Shown: piece after piece, positions 6,185-62,852 of the stretch
How positions within the stretch are numbered: position 1 is the first letter of the stretch
Layout: the number at the start of each line of letters is the position of its first letter
Assembly: GCA_030377865.1 (NCBI GenBank)
Contig: JAUCGA010000002.1
Location: 1 to 64,000, forward strand
Direction of reading: 5' to 3'
Length of the DNA: 64,000 bases
DNA from: Anaerolineales bacterium HSG25
GTDB lineage: Bacteria; Chloroflexota; Anaerolineae; 4572-78; J111
Position numbers and translations under genes: made by a program
The notes under the pieces: model-generated
The model's database searches: none
Told to the model about the DNA's origin: nothing
Seen by the model: the letters and a program-made list of their open reading frames with translations, nothing else

Positions 6185-6318
6185 AGTTGTTCGGCAATAA
6201 AGGAGTGCAAAAGCTTCTTGCTTTTGCCGGAGACAAATATGCAAAAATAATAAGCTTTTGCACTCCGCAAACCTCGAATTTGAGTTTTTATGCGATGATA
6301 AGTTATTGCCGAACAACT
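6185..6318. mobile_element. MITE-like element, GTTGTTCGG family, copy 1
   Basis: A 134-base element bounded by perfect 16-base terminal inverted repeats (AGTTGTTCGGCAATAA / TTATTGCCGAACAACT). The interior also folds back, with GGAGTGCAAAAGC matching GCTTTTGCACTCC. It has no coding capacity of its own. A second copy with an expanded interior is at 48339-48510. Confidence 0.75.
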
Positions 6319-9409: not shown

Positions 9410-9480
9410 AACCTAACTAACGCTCCATAAAGTTCGATGATAGTGATAGGTAGGCGTTGGTCTTCATTTGGACCATAAGA

Positions 9481-9547
9481 ACAGGGTGTGCGGAATGACA
9501 CTGATTAAATCATGCCAAAATCAGTGTCATTCCACGCATCCTGTTCT
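9481..9547. repeat. Inverted repeat around a TGACACTGATT core
   Basis: AACAGGgtgtgcGGAATGACACTGATT faces AATCAGTGTCATTCCacgcatCCTGTT. A related palindrome (AACAGGATTCGCAGGATGACACTGATT ...) is at 51575-51640, so this is a dispersed family. Non-coding. Confidence 0.6.
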
Positions 9548-15576: not shown

Positions 15577-15658
15577 AATTCAAAACTCCTAATATATTAT
15601 ATTTTTTGATTGCGATGAAGGTTCAGAAGTTTATCATTTCAACATGACTAAAACAATA

Positions 15659-15728
15659 TCTGACAGGATTAACAGGATTGACAGGATTACAAGTAAAAAA
15701 ATCCTGTCAATCCTGTTAATCCTGTCAA
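15659..15728. repeat. GACAGGATTAACAGGATT / AATCCTGTTAATCCTGTC fold-back repeat
   Basis: Three 9-mers read out and three back (GACAGGATTAACAGGATTGACAGGATT..., then AATCCTGTCAATCCTGTTAATCCTGTC), giving a 27-base stem. Located just upstream of icd on its 5' side. Same family as 6119, 24608, 49336 and 55866. Confidence 0.8.
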
Positions 15729-15999
15729 AAAATGCTTTTGATTTTATCAAAATATCAGGTCGTGAATGAAACGACAAACTCTTGAAGGTTCATAAACCTC
15801 ATACGCGTGTAATCAATCATTTCGATTTTATCGTTTAATCGACAAAACGCAAATTGTTTAAGTGCCTCGTTAGTAAATGACCGAATATCGCTGAAACATG
15901 ATCACCATTTCGGCATCGCCCCAAAAACCCCGTTTTTGGGAAAAAGTGTAGTGGTCAGCTTGATAAGTAACTTTCATTTCTAAGTTATCACTTTTATCA

Positions 16000-16197
16000 G
16001 CATGTCATTCCCGCATGCTTTGGGCGGGAATCTATGTATTGTCAGTGGATTCCCGCTAAAAACGTGCGGGAATGACAATTTACAAGTTAGTTCTGAAAAC
16101 TACTTATTGAAAACGGAGTGCAACGGGTTTAGCCGTTGCTACAGGCAATGGCTGAACCCATTGCACTCCAACATCATCTTGACCACCACAGTTTTTG
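16000..16197. repeat. Two adjacent palindromic repeats
   Basis: Bases 16002-16076 are a palindrome with GTCATTCCCGCA arms, related to 43047-43105. Bases 16108-16195 contain GGAGTGCAACGGGTTTAGCCGTTGC and its inverted partner ending GCACTCC, followed by ATCATCTTGACCACCACA, which recurs inverted at 29921. Short open frames overlying them are not believed. Confidence 0.6.
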
Positions 16198-48338: not shown

Positions 48339-48510
48339 AGAGTTGTTCGGGAATAAAGGAGTGCAAAAGCATCTTGCTTTTGCCAGAGGTAAACATGCAA
48401 AAGCATCTTGCTTTTGCCAGAGGTAAACATGCAAAAGCAAGATGCTTTTGCACTCCATGCACCTCGATTTTGAGTTTTTATGAGATAAGTAGTTATTCCC
48501 GAACAGGTCT
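48339..48510. mobile_element. MITE-like element, GTTGTTCGG family, copy 2 with expanded interior
   Basis: Ends AGAGTTGTTCGGGAATAA and TTATTCCCGAACAggTCT. The inside holds two tandem 35-base units (GCAAAAGCATCTTGCTTTTG then CCAGAGGTAAACAT) and a third, inverted arm ending GCTTTTGCACTCC. Same family as 6185-6318. It lies between mnmA and the response regulator. Confidence 0.72.
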
Positions 48511-49306: not shown

Positions 49307-49443
49307 GTACCCGACATATTGATTAAATAAAGATTTTTTCGACAGGATTAACAAGATTGACAGGATTTTTTGCCTTTAATCTTGTTAATCCTGTCAGATA
49401 TTTTTTGTGTTTAGTTGAGGCTAAAAACCTTGTCGGGTAACAA
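49307..49443. mobile_element. TACCCGACA-ended fold-back element between regulator and kinase
   Basis: GTACCCGACA at the left and TGTCGGGTAAC at the right flank GACAGGATTAACAAGATTGACAGGATT and its inverted partner. 137 bases, starting 10 bases after the regulator stop. Fits the family at 24564; left ends also appear at 6064 and 53320. Confidence 0.6.
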
Positions 49444-51470: not shown

Positions 51471-51750
51471 GCTGTTCAGTTCTCCATGTTTCCATGATGG
51501 TAACGGGTGTGTACCCGTTACCCATAACAGGCAGGTATATACTCGCCAAATACCCGTTGCGATTACATAAAAAGAACAGGATTCGCAGGATGACACTGAT
51601 TAGAATCGAGTAAATCAGTGTCATCCTGTGAATCCTGTTCTCAACATCCTTGCTGATACTTTCCATGATGGTAACGGGGGTGTACCCGTTACCCATAACA
51701 AGCGGGTATATACCCGCCAAATACCCGTTGCGATTACATAATCGCAACGA
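51471..51750. repeat. Composite repeat cluster after the histidine kinase
   Basis: Left end GGGCTGTTCAGTTCTCCATG of the 13611-type element (51472-51491), a GGTAACGGGTGTGTACCC repeat (51494-51570), a TGACACTGATT inverted repeat (51575-51640, relative of 9481) and a second GGTAACGGGG-type repeat (51663-51750). Short minus-strand frames over it are not believed. Confidence 0.65.
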
Positions 51751-58992: not shown

Positions 58993-60618
58993 ATGACAAA
59001 AATCCATTCAGCAGTATTAGACATGCAGAGCGATTTACGAAAAGGCAAAATCAACCGCCGTGAGTTTTTGCGCTTTGCCACTTTGTTAGGCGTATCAGCT
59101 ACAACAGCTGGTATTATGGCCGGTTGTGGAAATCAACCAGCCGCACCGAGTACACCGATCCCCATCAAGCGGGGTGGCACGATGAGAATCGGTACAGCGC
59201 TTCAGGAGGTGTCCCATCCGGCCCGTTTATCATGGGTTGAAAGTTCCAACGTGTTGCGTCAGGTGGCTGAATATTTGACCGAAACAGGCGCGGATGGTAT
59301 TACTCGTCCGTGGCTATTGGAACGATGGGAGGCCAATGAGGATGTAACCATGTGGACATTGTTTTTAAATAAAGGAATTAAATTCAACAACGGTCAGGAG
59401 TTAACTGCCGATGATGTGATTTTCAACTTCGAGCAATGGCTTGATCCCACGATTGAATCCTCAATGGCTACTTTGCTTTCCTATCTTAGCCCCTCCAATA
59501 TTGAACGAGTTGATGATTACACCATTCGTCTCCATCTTGATGCCCCTCAAATCGGTGTTCCAGAGCATCTGTACCATTACCCGGCTCTGATAATGTCACG
59601 TGAGTTTGAAGGGGATTTTATCAAACAACCACTTGGAACCGGCCCGTTCATCTTGACTGAATACACTGTTGGCGACCAAGCGGTTTGCCAACGGCGACCC
59701 GACTATTGGCGCATGGGGGTTGATGGCAACCCCTTGCCCTATCTTGATGAACTTATCTACATTGAACTGGAAGTAGAAGAGCGAGTTGAGGCCATGCAGG
59801 GGGGCGGTATTGACACATTGTATATGCCCAGCCCAAGGGATTGGCAGGTTCTTAAGGAGGTGCCTAATCTTGCAGTGTATGGGGTTAGTACCGCCCAAGC
59901 ATTCGTGATACGCATGCGAGTTGACCGACCTCCGTGGGATGATGTGCGGGTCCGACAAGCCCTCATGTTGTGTCAAGACCGCCAGAGAATTTTGGAGGGT
60001 TCCTATTTTGGGCAGGGTGAGTTAGCCATAGATGCCCATGTTGCCCCCATTCATCCGGCCTATTGTGAGAAACCAATCCCAAAATATGACCCTGAAAAGG
60101 CCAAAACATTGTTAGATGAAGCAGGTTATCCAGATGGTCTCCAGGTTAAGTTAATCACTAAGGATGATCGGAGCGAAGCGGAATTGGCCCGTATATTACG
60201 GAACTTGGCCGCTCCAGCAGGGTTTGATATTGAACTGAACACCATCGAGCCAGCCAAATATTGGGAACAATGGACAGAGGTCGAGTTGGGCATCACTCAT
60301 TGGACGCATAGACCACTTGGTACGATGGTTTTGGCTCTTGGCTACACCTCTGATAAGGAGGGTAATCCGGTCAATTGGAATGAAACCCGCTGGGTTGATG
60401 AGGAGTTTAACACTCTATTACGGCAAGCTGAACGCACCCTAGACATCCCCAAACGGCGGGAGATTATGTGTCAAATTGAAGAGATTATGCAAACACGCGG
60501 CCCGATTGGGATTAGCTATTGGCGAAAAATATGGACGATTATTCGGGCTGAGTTCAAAAATGTAAAGATGCACCCAACAGGCTATGACCTTTTCTATGAT
60601 GTGTGGAAAGATACGTGA
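58993..60618 (+). CDS. Family 5 ABC substrate-binding lipoprotein (oligopeptide type)
   Basis: 541 residues. A twin-arginine-like NRREFLRFATLLG signal ends in the lipobox MAGC, so it is probably exported folded and lipid-anchored. SBP_bac_5 fold: GTMRIGTALQEVSHP early, KFNNGQELTADDVIFNFEQW, GTGPFILTEYTVGD and VRQALMLCQDR motifs. The ligand is probably a peptide or other large solute. No permease or ATPase genes are nearby. AAGGAG lies before the ATG. CGTGATACGTGATG direct repeats follow (60612-60655). Confidence 0.88.
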   Translation: MTKIHSAVLDMQSDLRKGKINRREFLRFATLLGVSATTAGIMAGCGNQPAAPSTPIPIKRGGTMRIGTALQEVSHPARLSWVESSNVLRQVAEYLTETGADGITRPWLLERWEANEDVTMWTLFLNKGIKFNNGQELTADDVIFNFEQWLDPTIESSMATLLSYLSPSNIERVDDYTIRLHLDAPQIGVPEHLYHYPALIMSREFEGDFIKQPLGTGPFILTEYTVGDQAVCQRRPDYWRMGVDGNPLPYLDELIYIELEVEERVEAMQGGGIDTLYMPSPRDWQVLKEVPNLAVYGVSTAQAFVIRMRVDRPPWDDVRVRQALMLCQDRQRILEGSYFGQGELAIDAHVAPIHPAYCEKPIPKYDPEKAKTLLDEAGYPDGLQVKLITKDDRSEAELARILRNLAAPAGFDIELNTIEPAKYWEQWTEVELGITHWTHRPLGTMVLALGYTSDKEGNPVNWNETRWVDEEFNTLLRQAERTLDIPKRREIMCQIEEIMQTRGPIGISYWRKIWTIIRAEFKNVKMHPTGYDLFYDVWKDT

Positions 60619-60698
60619 TGCGTGATACGTGATGTGTGATGCGTGGTACGTGATAAGGATGAATATCCACTATCGGAAAGCATTAGGAACTTAAAATA

Positions 60699-62852
60699 AT
60701 GCACAAAAAAATCTCAGGTAAACTCTTTCGTAGTTTAACTGCCAAACTGATTATTGCCTTTTTTCTTGTTTCGCTGATCCCCTTGAGTTTGCTGGCGTTT
60801 TTCAATAATCGTAATACCCAAGCCATATTAATAGAAAATGCCAACCAATCTTTATCCACTGCCGCGTCACAGACAGCCAACAATATCGACACCTTTTTTG
60901 AGGTTAATTTAGATGCCCTCAAAGTGGAGGCTCAACTACCCGCTTTAGTAGCTTATTTGAGTTTGCCACCTGACCAACGAACAAATAGTTCCACCGAGGA
61001 AGCGACCTTAGCCACCTTGCAAGAACTGAGACGCAAAAATCGAATATTTATCACCTCGTATGCTTTGTTAGATCATGACGGTCAAAATGTGCTAGATACC
61101 GATTCTACCGGGATCGGATTAGATGAGTCGTACCAAGAGTATTTTCAAAAACCTCTGGAATCGGGCTTGCCAGAAGTATCACATATTACCTTAGCCAGCC
61201 CCGATAATTCAAAACGGGAAGACATGATTATCCATTTCAGTAGCCCCATTCGCGAAGCCACTCGAGGTGAGACAATTGGTATTTTACGCATCCGCTATAA
61301 AGCTACCACCTTGCAACAACTCGTTGTGGCTAATAATGGCCTCGCCGGAGATGAATCGTATGCCATTTTGCTTGACGAAAATCTCATCTACTTAGCTCAC
61401 GGTACCAACCCTGAACTGATCTTCAAAACAGTAATCCCTCTAAACCTTACTCAGATAGCTCGTTTACAAGACCTAACCCGTCTACCAAATCTACCCGTCA
61501 GTGAGCTTTCGACAAACTTATTTGACTTGGCCGAGAAGTTAGCCAACATCACCTTTGAACCCAACTTTACCACAAAAGTAGAAACATCGACCGACCGCCT
61601 CAACTTGGTAGTTGCCAAAGAGTTAAAAACACGCCCTTGGTTCGTCATCTTTGCCCAACCAGAAGCGGTATTTCTAGCTCCCATCAACGCCCAAACAAAA
61701 AATACGATTTATCTTGCCATTGCCATTGGATTCGCGGTCATGGCAGTTGCCGTTATTGCCGGACGTACTTTAGCTACCCCGCTTCTTGAACTAACTCAAG
61801 CCGTTAGTCGTTTCACGGCTGGTGATTTAGAAGTCCGAGCCAACATCAAGTCGAATGATGAACGGGAGACTCTGGCAACCAGTTTCAACACTATGGCTGA
61901 ACAAGTGGGTAGCTTGCTGAAAAATTTAGAGGAGCGCACCTACGAGTTGGAGGCTGAAATTATCGAGCGTCAACGTGCCGAATCGCAACTGGTTCAGTTA
62001 TCAGTGATTGAACGAGAGTTGGCTATCGCTCATCAAATACAACAGAACCTTTTACCTCCAGTCAAGCCAGATTGGTTGAACCTTGATGTGATCTGTTTCA
62101 ATAATCCGGCCCGTGAAGTGGGAGGAGATTTGTACAGTTATCATAAATTTACCCAAACGGCCTATGCCTTTGCTGTCGGTGATGTGTCGGGTAAAGGGGT
62201 TTCGGCGGCATTATTGATGGCGATTAGTTTGTCACAGTATAATGTTTCCCTAGACCTTGACCTATCTCCGATTAAACGTATGGTTTATCTGGATAAAACC
62301 ATCTCATCTTATACCAAACTTCGACATCAGAATTGTGCCATGTGCTACGTTGAGGTGGAGAGGAAAGAGGATGGAGGGATGGAGGATAGAGGGATAGAGG
62401 ATGGAGGAAAACACCTCAAACCTGCGCGAAGCCTCCCCGTAGGGGGACAAACCTCAAAACCTCAATCCTCTATCCTCAATCCCTCTATCCTGACTGTGGT
62501 CAACGCCGGTTGTATTCCGCCTTATATTAAACGTGCAGATGGTTCGGTTGAGTTTGATGAAAAAATGGGCGGTTTTGCTTTGGGGCAAGGATTAGGAGCA
62601 GAGTCAGGTTATCAGCAACATACGGTTGAGCTATTCCCCGGCGACATGGTGATTTTGACTAGTGATGGGGTGGTTGAGGCCAATAATGATACTGGCGACA
62701 TGCTCGGCTTTGAGCGGCTAGAGCAGATTGTTAGGGATGGGCCAACCGCTGGAGCTGAAGCCATGCTAGAACATCTCAAGCAAGAGGTGTTTGCCTTTAC
62801 TGAAGAGGCAGAGCAACATGACGATATGACGATGGTGGTGGTTAGAGTATGA
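60699..62852 (+). CDS. Membrane sensor phosphatase: Cache - HAMP - SpoIIE/PP2C, with an in-frame repeat insertion
   Basis: 717 residues. Membrane segment about 18-38, a double-Cache-like extracellular domain (about 40-330), second segment about 340-360, HAMP (LATPLLELTQAVSRFTAGDL), a short coiled coil, then a SpoIIE-type PP2C phosphatase starting IAHQIQQNLLPP with REVGGDLYSYH, AVGDVSGKGVSAALL and QHDDMTMVVV as metal-binding motifs. These proteins control anti-sigma or STAS partners. Between the middle strands, about residues 553-600 come from a repetitive insertion of GGATGGAGG-like units (62356-62498) that leaves the frame open. No partner switch genes are adjacent. Confidence 0.88.
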   Translation: MHKKISGKLFRSLTAKLIIAFFLVSLIPLSLLAFFNNRNTQAILIENANQSLSTAASQTANNIDTFFEVNLDALKVEAQLPALVAYLSLPPDQRTNSSTEEATLATLQELRRKNRIFITSYALLDHDGQNVLDTDSTGIGLDESYQEYFQKPLESGLPEVSHITLASPDNSKREDMIIHFSSPIREATRGETIGILRIRYKATTLQQLVVANNGLAGDESYAILLDENLIYLAHGTNPELIFKTVIPLNLTQIARLQDLTRLPNLPVSELSTNLFDLAEKLANITFEPNFTTKVETSTDRLNLVVAKELKTRPWFVIFAQPEAVFLAPINAQTKNTIYLAIAIGFAVMAVAVIAGRTLATPLLELTQAVSRFTAGDLEVRANIKSNDERETLATSFNTMAEQVGSLLKNLEERTYELEAEIIERQRAESQLVQLSVIERELAIAHQIQQNLLPPVKPDWLNLDVICFNNPAREVGGDLYSYHKFTQTAYAFAVGDVSGKGVSAALLMAISLSQYNVSLDLDLSPIKRMVYLDKTISSYTKLRHQNCAMCYVEVERKEDGGMEDRGIEDGGKHLKPARSLPVGGQTSKPQSSILNPSILTVVNAGCIPPYIKRADGSVEFDEKMGGFALGQGLGAESGYQQHTVELFPGDMVILTSDGVVEANNDTGDMLGFERLEQIVRDGPTAGAEAMLEHLKQEVFAFTEEAEQHDDMTMVVVRV
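62356..62498. repeat. GGATAGAGG/CCTCTATCC palindromic insertion inside a coding sequence
   Basis: Purine-rich direct repeats (GAGGATGGAGG, GGATAGAGG) on the left arm face CCTCTATCCTCAATCCCTC-type repeats on the right, with AAGCCTCCCCGTAGGGGGAC between. It encodes a Glu/Asp/Gly-rich then Pro/Ser-rich loop. Length 143 bases with imprecise ends; the frame is preserved. Confidence 0.65.

Follow-up and report, generated by a model that had tools for sequence, protein, structure and literature searches.

The 64,000-nucleotide stretch of Anaerolineales bacterium HSG25 analysed here (contig JAUCGA010000002.1, positions 1 to 64,000; hereafter the window) contains a gene for a predicted PP2C/SpoIIE-type phosphatase whose catalytic domain is interrupted by repetitive DNA. 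This raises the question of where such an insert comes from and how the protein accommodates it. The insert is an imperfect hairpin that is read in an open frame at a turn of the protein; its counterparts in related genes turn over, belong to several repeat families and recur in a second, unrelated fold. Probably it is a dispersed palindromic repeat, like those in the spacers of the genome, and many families of such repeats would enter genes and survive mainly at exposed turns.

The insert and its host protein

The host open reading frame (ORF) at 60699-62852 encodes a product of 717 residues with Pfam matches to dCache_1, HAMP and SpoIIE/PP2C (PF07228, 5.4e-33). It is open throughout, including across the insert, as the original prediction had stated. 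Family profile and fold both place the protein among the PP2C/SpoIIE phosphatases, the best solved match of the modelled domain being the PP2C domain of SiaA (6k4e_B; TM, template modelling score, 0.82 by target length; Foldseek). A sequence search of the PDB found weak relatives only, and the fold search was more informative. The insert lies between the GDVSGKG region and the later strands, also as proposed. The GGD, GDVSGKG, SDG and DD motifs, which we take to carry the PP2C metal ligands, are intact and occur on both sides of it. The features of the locus are as follows (pLDDT, predicted local distance difference test).

60699..62852, + strand: host gene, dCache_1-HAMP-PP2C/SpoIIE phosphatase (ORF list and Pfam)
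61971..62849, + strand: PP2C domain and linker as modelled, 293 residues (AlphaFold2; closest solved fold 6k4e_B)
62334..62363, + strand: beta strand preceding the loop, model residues 122-131 (AlphaFold2)
62368..62491, + strand: in-frame palindromic repeat element, an imperfect hairpin; loop of ~40 residues, protein residues about 557-598
62369..62407, + strand: left arm, five GGATRGAGG words (word search)
62376..62465, + strand: codons of model residues 136-165 (pLDDT <50 at 136-161 and 163-165)
62424..62447, + strand: inner hairpin core GCGCGAAGCCTCCCCGTAGGGGGA, a distinct element between the arms (word search)
62460..62490, + strand: right arm, CCTCAATCC / CCTCTATCC words (word search)
62484..62510, + strand: beta strand following the loop, model residues 172-180 (AlphaFold2); the right end of the element reaches its first codons

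Loop B comprises the 48 codons (144 nt) that separate a strand with the C-terminal residues NCAMCYV from the strand VVNAGCIPPY. It contains every one of the window's GGATRGAGG (five) and CCTC(C/T)ATCC (two) words. About 143 bases of repeat words had been predicted here. That figure agrees with the length of the loop, within which an inverted repeat of 124 nt lies in frame, but the words fill the arms only and the middle is a different element. It had gone unnoticed that the insert is palindromic, that a second element is nested inside it and that a second, unrelated fold is affected alike. Folded as single-stranded RNA, the region reaches -67.2 kcal/mol against -43.0 +/- 3.9 kcal/mol for 200 dinucleotide shuffles (z -6.2), none of which folds as well. 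Inverted repeats scoring at least 45 number 214 in a 407,642-base sample of the genome and zero in 207,642 bases of a first-order Markov control. The exact spaced pattern of both arm words has no match in the organism's own genome, because the centre varies. In Rfam no family scored above its gathering threshold for the hairpin; a permissive threshold returned only eukaryotic RNA models far below that score, which we take to be chance matches of a hairpin.

The AlphaFold2 model of the domain, built with 16 sequences, has a mean pLDDT of 86.8 and a predicted template modelling score (pTM) of 0.83. Its segments below 50, residues 136-161 and 163-165, lie inside the element and are flanked by the strands at 122-131 and 172-180. 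The model places the insert at a beta-hairpin turn; the loop peptide is most likely neutral and disordered. A low-confidence turn in an otherwise confident fold supports the tolerated surface loop that was originally proposed. The idea that the DNA hairpin lengthens the beta hairpin of the protein was rejected, as the modelled loop contains no strand. In the AlphaFold2 model of the relative from HSG24 (mean 84.9) the low segments, 140-153 and 255-259, correspond to its own loop B element and to a third loop. This third PP2C loop holds an in-frame palindrome of the CCTTCAAGGTTTC type (L001 5050-5110), which the window gene lacks. Elsewhere in the window protein, the dCache-HAMP half is ~50% identical to cyanobacterial sensors (Microcoleus vaginatus) with other output domains (L002, L004). 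Just upstream of the gene, at window positions 60616-60660, lies a short-word array (GTGATGCGTGATACGTGATG...).

Variation and turnover at loop B

Loop B was compared across 44 PP2C genes picked by hand from match tables: 13 from the window genome (G000), 11 from its congener G001, which we take to be Anaerolineales bacterium HSG24, and 12 and 8 from G002 and G021, taken as Chloroflexi bin_187 and Anaerolineaceae 4572_78. The comparison omits matches in the other relatives, G003 to G011, along with additional G002 and G021 matches. Loop ends were set by tblastn anchors without requiring an open frame, and a hairpin was called at an inverted-repeat score of at least 32; among random in-gene segments, 20 of 2000 reach a score of 30. 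Eleven genes carry a hairpin at loop B (G000 4/13, G001 4/11, G002 3/12, G021 0/8). Typed by eye, the GGATAGAGG type occupies three G000 genes and the AATTAAG type four genes (one in G000, three in G001); each of the other four word types occurs in a single gene, one of them from G001 and three from G002. Relatives had been expected to differ in this loop, and they do. Because 33 of the 44 genes have no hairpin there and the other 11 use several repeat families, the insert is not a native loop. The hairpin-free loops measure 8-23 residues in 31 of the 33 genes; the remaining two, the sister pair C58 (G000, L156) and C33 (G001, L168), have loops of 39-40 residues with no detectable hairpin.

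All 11 elements are divisible by three in length and have no in-frame stop, and in 10 of them both other forward frames contain stops. These properties bear on the idea that the ribosome skips the insert by translational bypassing. Palindromic elements do occur in the coding sequence of Magnusiomyces mitochondrial genes, a precedent mentioned in the excerpt of PMC6649704 that we consulted, but bypassing would need neither a length divisible by three nor a stop-free frame, and we regard it as scarcely credible here.

A maximum-likelihood tree was built for the 44 genes with the loops removed; on it, presence or absence of the hairpin requires 6 changes and hairpin type 10. The window gene (62k) and its HSG24 sister (support 100/97) share the core but differ in the arms around it, as seen in the tree and the DNA alignment. 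The DNA of the G000 genes 86k and 70k (support 100/93) is almost identical up to the loop, after which the arms differ. The 21-bp core pattern has 11 exact copies, found in 2 of 41 genomes, both of this genus. Six of these copies lie in PP2C loops (forward phase 0 twice, reverse phase 1 twice, reverse phase 0 once and forward phase 2 once), and the core also turns up elsewhere, a spacer being among those places. With four combinations of orientation and phase for a single core, the peptide is not the conserved thing and the repeat most likely acts at the level of DNA.

A second turn in histidine kinases

Pfam HATPase_c has 115 matches in G000. The corresponding turn, which we take to be the beta-hairpin between the N box and the G1 box, could be read between the N box and the D-x-G-x-G motif in 50 cases from the DNA fetched. 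An open frame across the turn was required; C47:144955, C113:34402, C96:39836 (four stops) and most of the weakest matches were left out. An inverted-repeat score of at least 40 is reached by 7 of the 50 turns; of 2000 length-matched random segments within genes, 4 do so (Fisher p 1e-9). A score of at least 30 is reached by 9 of 50 against 20 of 2000 (Fisher p 1e-8), L236 (34) and C77:117083 (30) falling between the two thresholds. With near-identical copies collapsed, 5 of 47 turns remain strong (p 6e-7). Contig C77 was tested apart from the rest because it had been fetched for carrying the repeat: 5 of its 9 turns have a hairpin against 25 of 1800 controls, and outside it 2 of 41 do against 2 of 2050 (p 0.002), these two being one paralogous pair. 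A variable stretch at this position is consistent with the alignment to a solved kinase domain. At G000:C96:39836-40159 the HATPase match starts at profile position 37 and contains four stop codons, possibly a kinase broken at this turn.

Several families occupy the turn, namely GCGATTCA words, a CTACCCCCC element, GGATAGAGG words, an TCCTATGTGCCCG hairpin and a CTTCCCGCAAGTT hairpin, and closely related kinases differ in them. In G000 the copies on C71 and C134 agree at 93% of 901 aligned positions and are set apart by a single 24-base in-frame unit of the array, which shows, for the same class of elements, the expansion in the original claim of a mobile or expanding repeat; mobility is deduced from turnover rather than observed. 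A G001 copy is 94% identical to the right of the turn and 88% to the left, while the turn itself differs and includes a CTCGTTCCCAAACTGAGTTTGGGAACGAG hairpin. On C77 the CTTCCCGCAAGTT hairpin is present in the 126k and 112k copies, and the 121k copy has another sequence there; the copies at 98k and 108k have the left half of the element in common and differ in the right. In the one congener contig compared, no orthologues of the other kinases were found at useful identity.

A hairpin that acts in the mRNA, as a ribosome pausing site, an RNase III site or an attenuator, with the loop peptide as a by-product, might account for so stable a fold (z -6.2) and for its retention while the arms differ between sister genes. 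Most PP2C genes do without the hairpin (33/44), though, its position tracks a protein turn in two unrelated folds, and no Rfam family reached its gathering score, which makes such control very unlikely. A further alternative is that the loops are selected for diversity, variable turns insulating or retargeting paralogous kinases and phosphatases. The paralogous sets are indeed large (115 HATPase matches; 40 matching pieces for the phosphatase query) and the loops are unlike even between closest copies. Against this, no peptide is retained when one core appears in four orientation and phase combinations, the loop is modelled with low confidence and is probably disordered, and turn elements match spacer repeats, one of them at 36 spacer places. 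We consider selection for diversity quite unlikely.

Origin of the inserts and relation to known systems

The repeat of the insert is also found in spacers elsewhere in the genome, and the elements of the kinase turns behave likewise. The 126k turn sequence has 44 places in the G000/G001 sample, 36 of them spacers, and two CTACCCCC turn elements have 10 spacer places each. For the CTTCCCGCAAGTT hairpin pattern, G000 has 248 matches and G001 has 85, and the other 39 relatives have none. The G000 assembly is a draft, 80% complete; the other assemblies G001 and G002 show a like pattern. Counting ORFs of at least 100 residues as coding and a score of at least 54 as a strong hairpin, 407,642 bases of G000 hold 106 strong hairpins, 76 in spacers, 13 wholly in ORFs and 17 at edges. 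The density, assigned by majority overlap, is 1.19 per kb in spacers versus 0.054 per kb in coding DNA, and in hairpin content the PP2C and HATPase turns are closer to spacer than to coding DNA. Of the eight in-gene hairpins on C77, seven occupy PP2C loop A, PP2C loop B or the turn that precedes the DTGxG box in HATPase domains; the eighth is in a 146-residue ORF without assignment. Another five are outside C77. C109 has two, in ORFs of 1000 and 850 residues for which Pfam gave no family above its cut-off, and the other three are in short ORFs (100-110 residues), which may not be genes. GGATAGAGG words are also present as a single arm in a CHAT-domain protein and as both arms in a PMT-like ORF, and at 3 of 6 places checked (G001, G007, G011) they lie within ORFs of at least 100 residues. 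In-frame placement thus extends over unrelated protein genes: PP2C loops, HATPase turns, the CHAT-domain protein and the PMT-like ORF. The 41 element matches in the genome include many that overlap or are partial and are not counted as insertions.

In the CHAT-domain protein (L085; G000:C89:20992-21031) the single arm lies between the TPR and CHAT parts. The spacers of the window itself hold many other hairpin families (GGAGTGCAAAAGC, CAGGATT words, AGAACAGGATTCGC, TGTCATTCCCGC, GGAGTGCAACGGG), several with copies on other contigs.

48358-48456, 6202-6266, 15650-15738, 49341-49395: spacer hairpin repeats of the window, inverted-repeat families
51573-51641, 9478-9547, 16003-16077, 16115-16169: further spacer hairpin repeats of the window, inverted-repeat families

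The distribution of copies bears on a local origin, in which slippage and replication template-switching would have built the palindromes from native codons without any insertion. The arms are short-word arrays, a 24-nt unit distinguishes two kinase copies, and the flanking native codons GAATTA and TTTGAGG seem to look like the words; these codons might also serve as short homology for entry. Turn elements nevertheless recur elsewhere (248 matches of one hairpin, 10 spacer places per CTACCCCC element) and the inner core is present at other places including a spacer, so that a purely local origin seems unlikely. The unrelated repeats at matching hairpin turns of sister genes and of a second enzyme family suggest that this kind of DNA can enter a gene at any point where the protein can accommodate it.

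On the explanation we favour, dispersal of spacer-type palindromes, repeats of many families would enter sites genome-wide. In genes nearly all copies would be removed because the protein is broken, and copies that leave the frame open and whose length is a multiple of three would persist at surface turns away from the active site. Resident elements would then drift, grow or shrink by in-frame units and acquire additional hairpins at their centre, and other families would replace them. Replacement between sister genes and the genus-limited amplification of one element suggest that the repeats move. Several points weigh against this explanation. No insertion event, target duplication or mobilising enzyme was identified, the transposase search covering PF01797 only; this Y1-transposase family, that of the REP-associated transposases (RAYT), has one match in G000, which nothing ties to the repeats, and four in G001. 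The exact empty site of the window's own element was not found, the hairpin-free genes being more distant (at most 58% domain identity in the compared rows). The kinase survey needed an open frame and read 50 turns of the 115 HATPase matches, five of its seven strong cases are on C77, the contig fetched for holding the repeat, and paralogues are not independent. Finally, long hairpin-free loops, those of C58/C33 and the 58-residue kinase-turn loop of L285 (C36), which has no detectable hairpin, imply that a long loop can also arise otherwise or be what is left of a decayed element.

A more speculative reading, which we think rather unlikely, is that palindromes are swapped as cassettes irrespective of family, perhaps by template-switching between hairpins with common short words, overwriting arms and cores at a few turns. 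If true, spacer DNA would keep rewriting the exposed turns of two signalling folds, and the lineage would have a lasting supply of loop variation for its paralogous kinases and phosphatases.

The best-known case of palindromic DNA lying in frame within genes is that of Rickettsia; the comparisons below draw on excerpts of the cited articles. Rickettsia palindromic elements (RPEs) are palindromes of ~105-150 bp that lie in spacers and, in frame, inside unrelated genes whose proteins tolerate them, and a guanylate kinase with such an insert is active (PMC10969869, PMC2229807). The present elements are alike in size, palindromic structure, in-frame position in unrelated genes and tolerance, the 124-nt hairpin (z -6.2) falling within the range of about 105-150 bp for a stable stem-loop. 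Unlike RPEs, which have a conserved peptide, the Chloroflexota elements have variable short-word arms and a core in several phases and both orientations, with neither a conserved sequence nor a conserved encoded peptide per family. Also unlike RPEs are the several unrelated families at one turn, the repeated replacement at one site and the Chloroflexota host. Bacterial miniature inverted-repeat transposable elements (MITEs) with fused ORFs (ERIC/RU-1, Correia, YPAL/RU-2) are likewise small stem-loops, mostly in spacers and sometimes in in-frame gene fusions (PMC2229807). For the Chloroflexota families no common terminal repeat, target duplication or cognate transposase was demonstrated; here the whole element is an inverted repeat whose ends vary from copy to copy, and sister-copy alignments show replacement. 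Nematomorpha mitochondria resemble this case in having long inverted repeats within translated genes, but there the arms encode conserved protein regions, whereas here the hairpin is an extra, probably disordered loop (PMC6649704). PARCELs are also palindromic coding repeats that spread between genes, yet they constitute a protein domain that a profile can recognise and that occurs mainly in membrane proteins, and here there is no conserved peptide (PMC2996958). The Beggiatoaceae TAACTGA repeats are similarly short words dispersed in spacers, but as direct repeats, where here the words form paired arms inside genes (PMC4679880). The literature searches made here brought up no recognised account of palindromic insertions at beta turns of Chloroflexota kinases or phosphatases.

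In this uncultured Chloroflexota genus, many unrelated repeat families occupy matching turns of two unrelated folds, and near-identical gene copies have different inserts. These form a natural set of loop-replacement experiments and show the reach of spacer DNA into protein sequence. Whether such DNA is tolerated baggage or a source of new variation is made testable by these loops.
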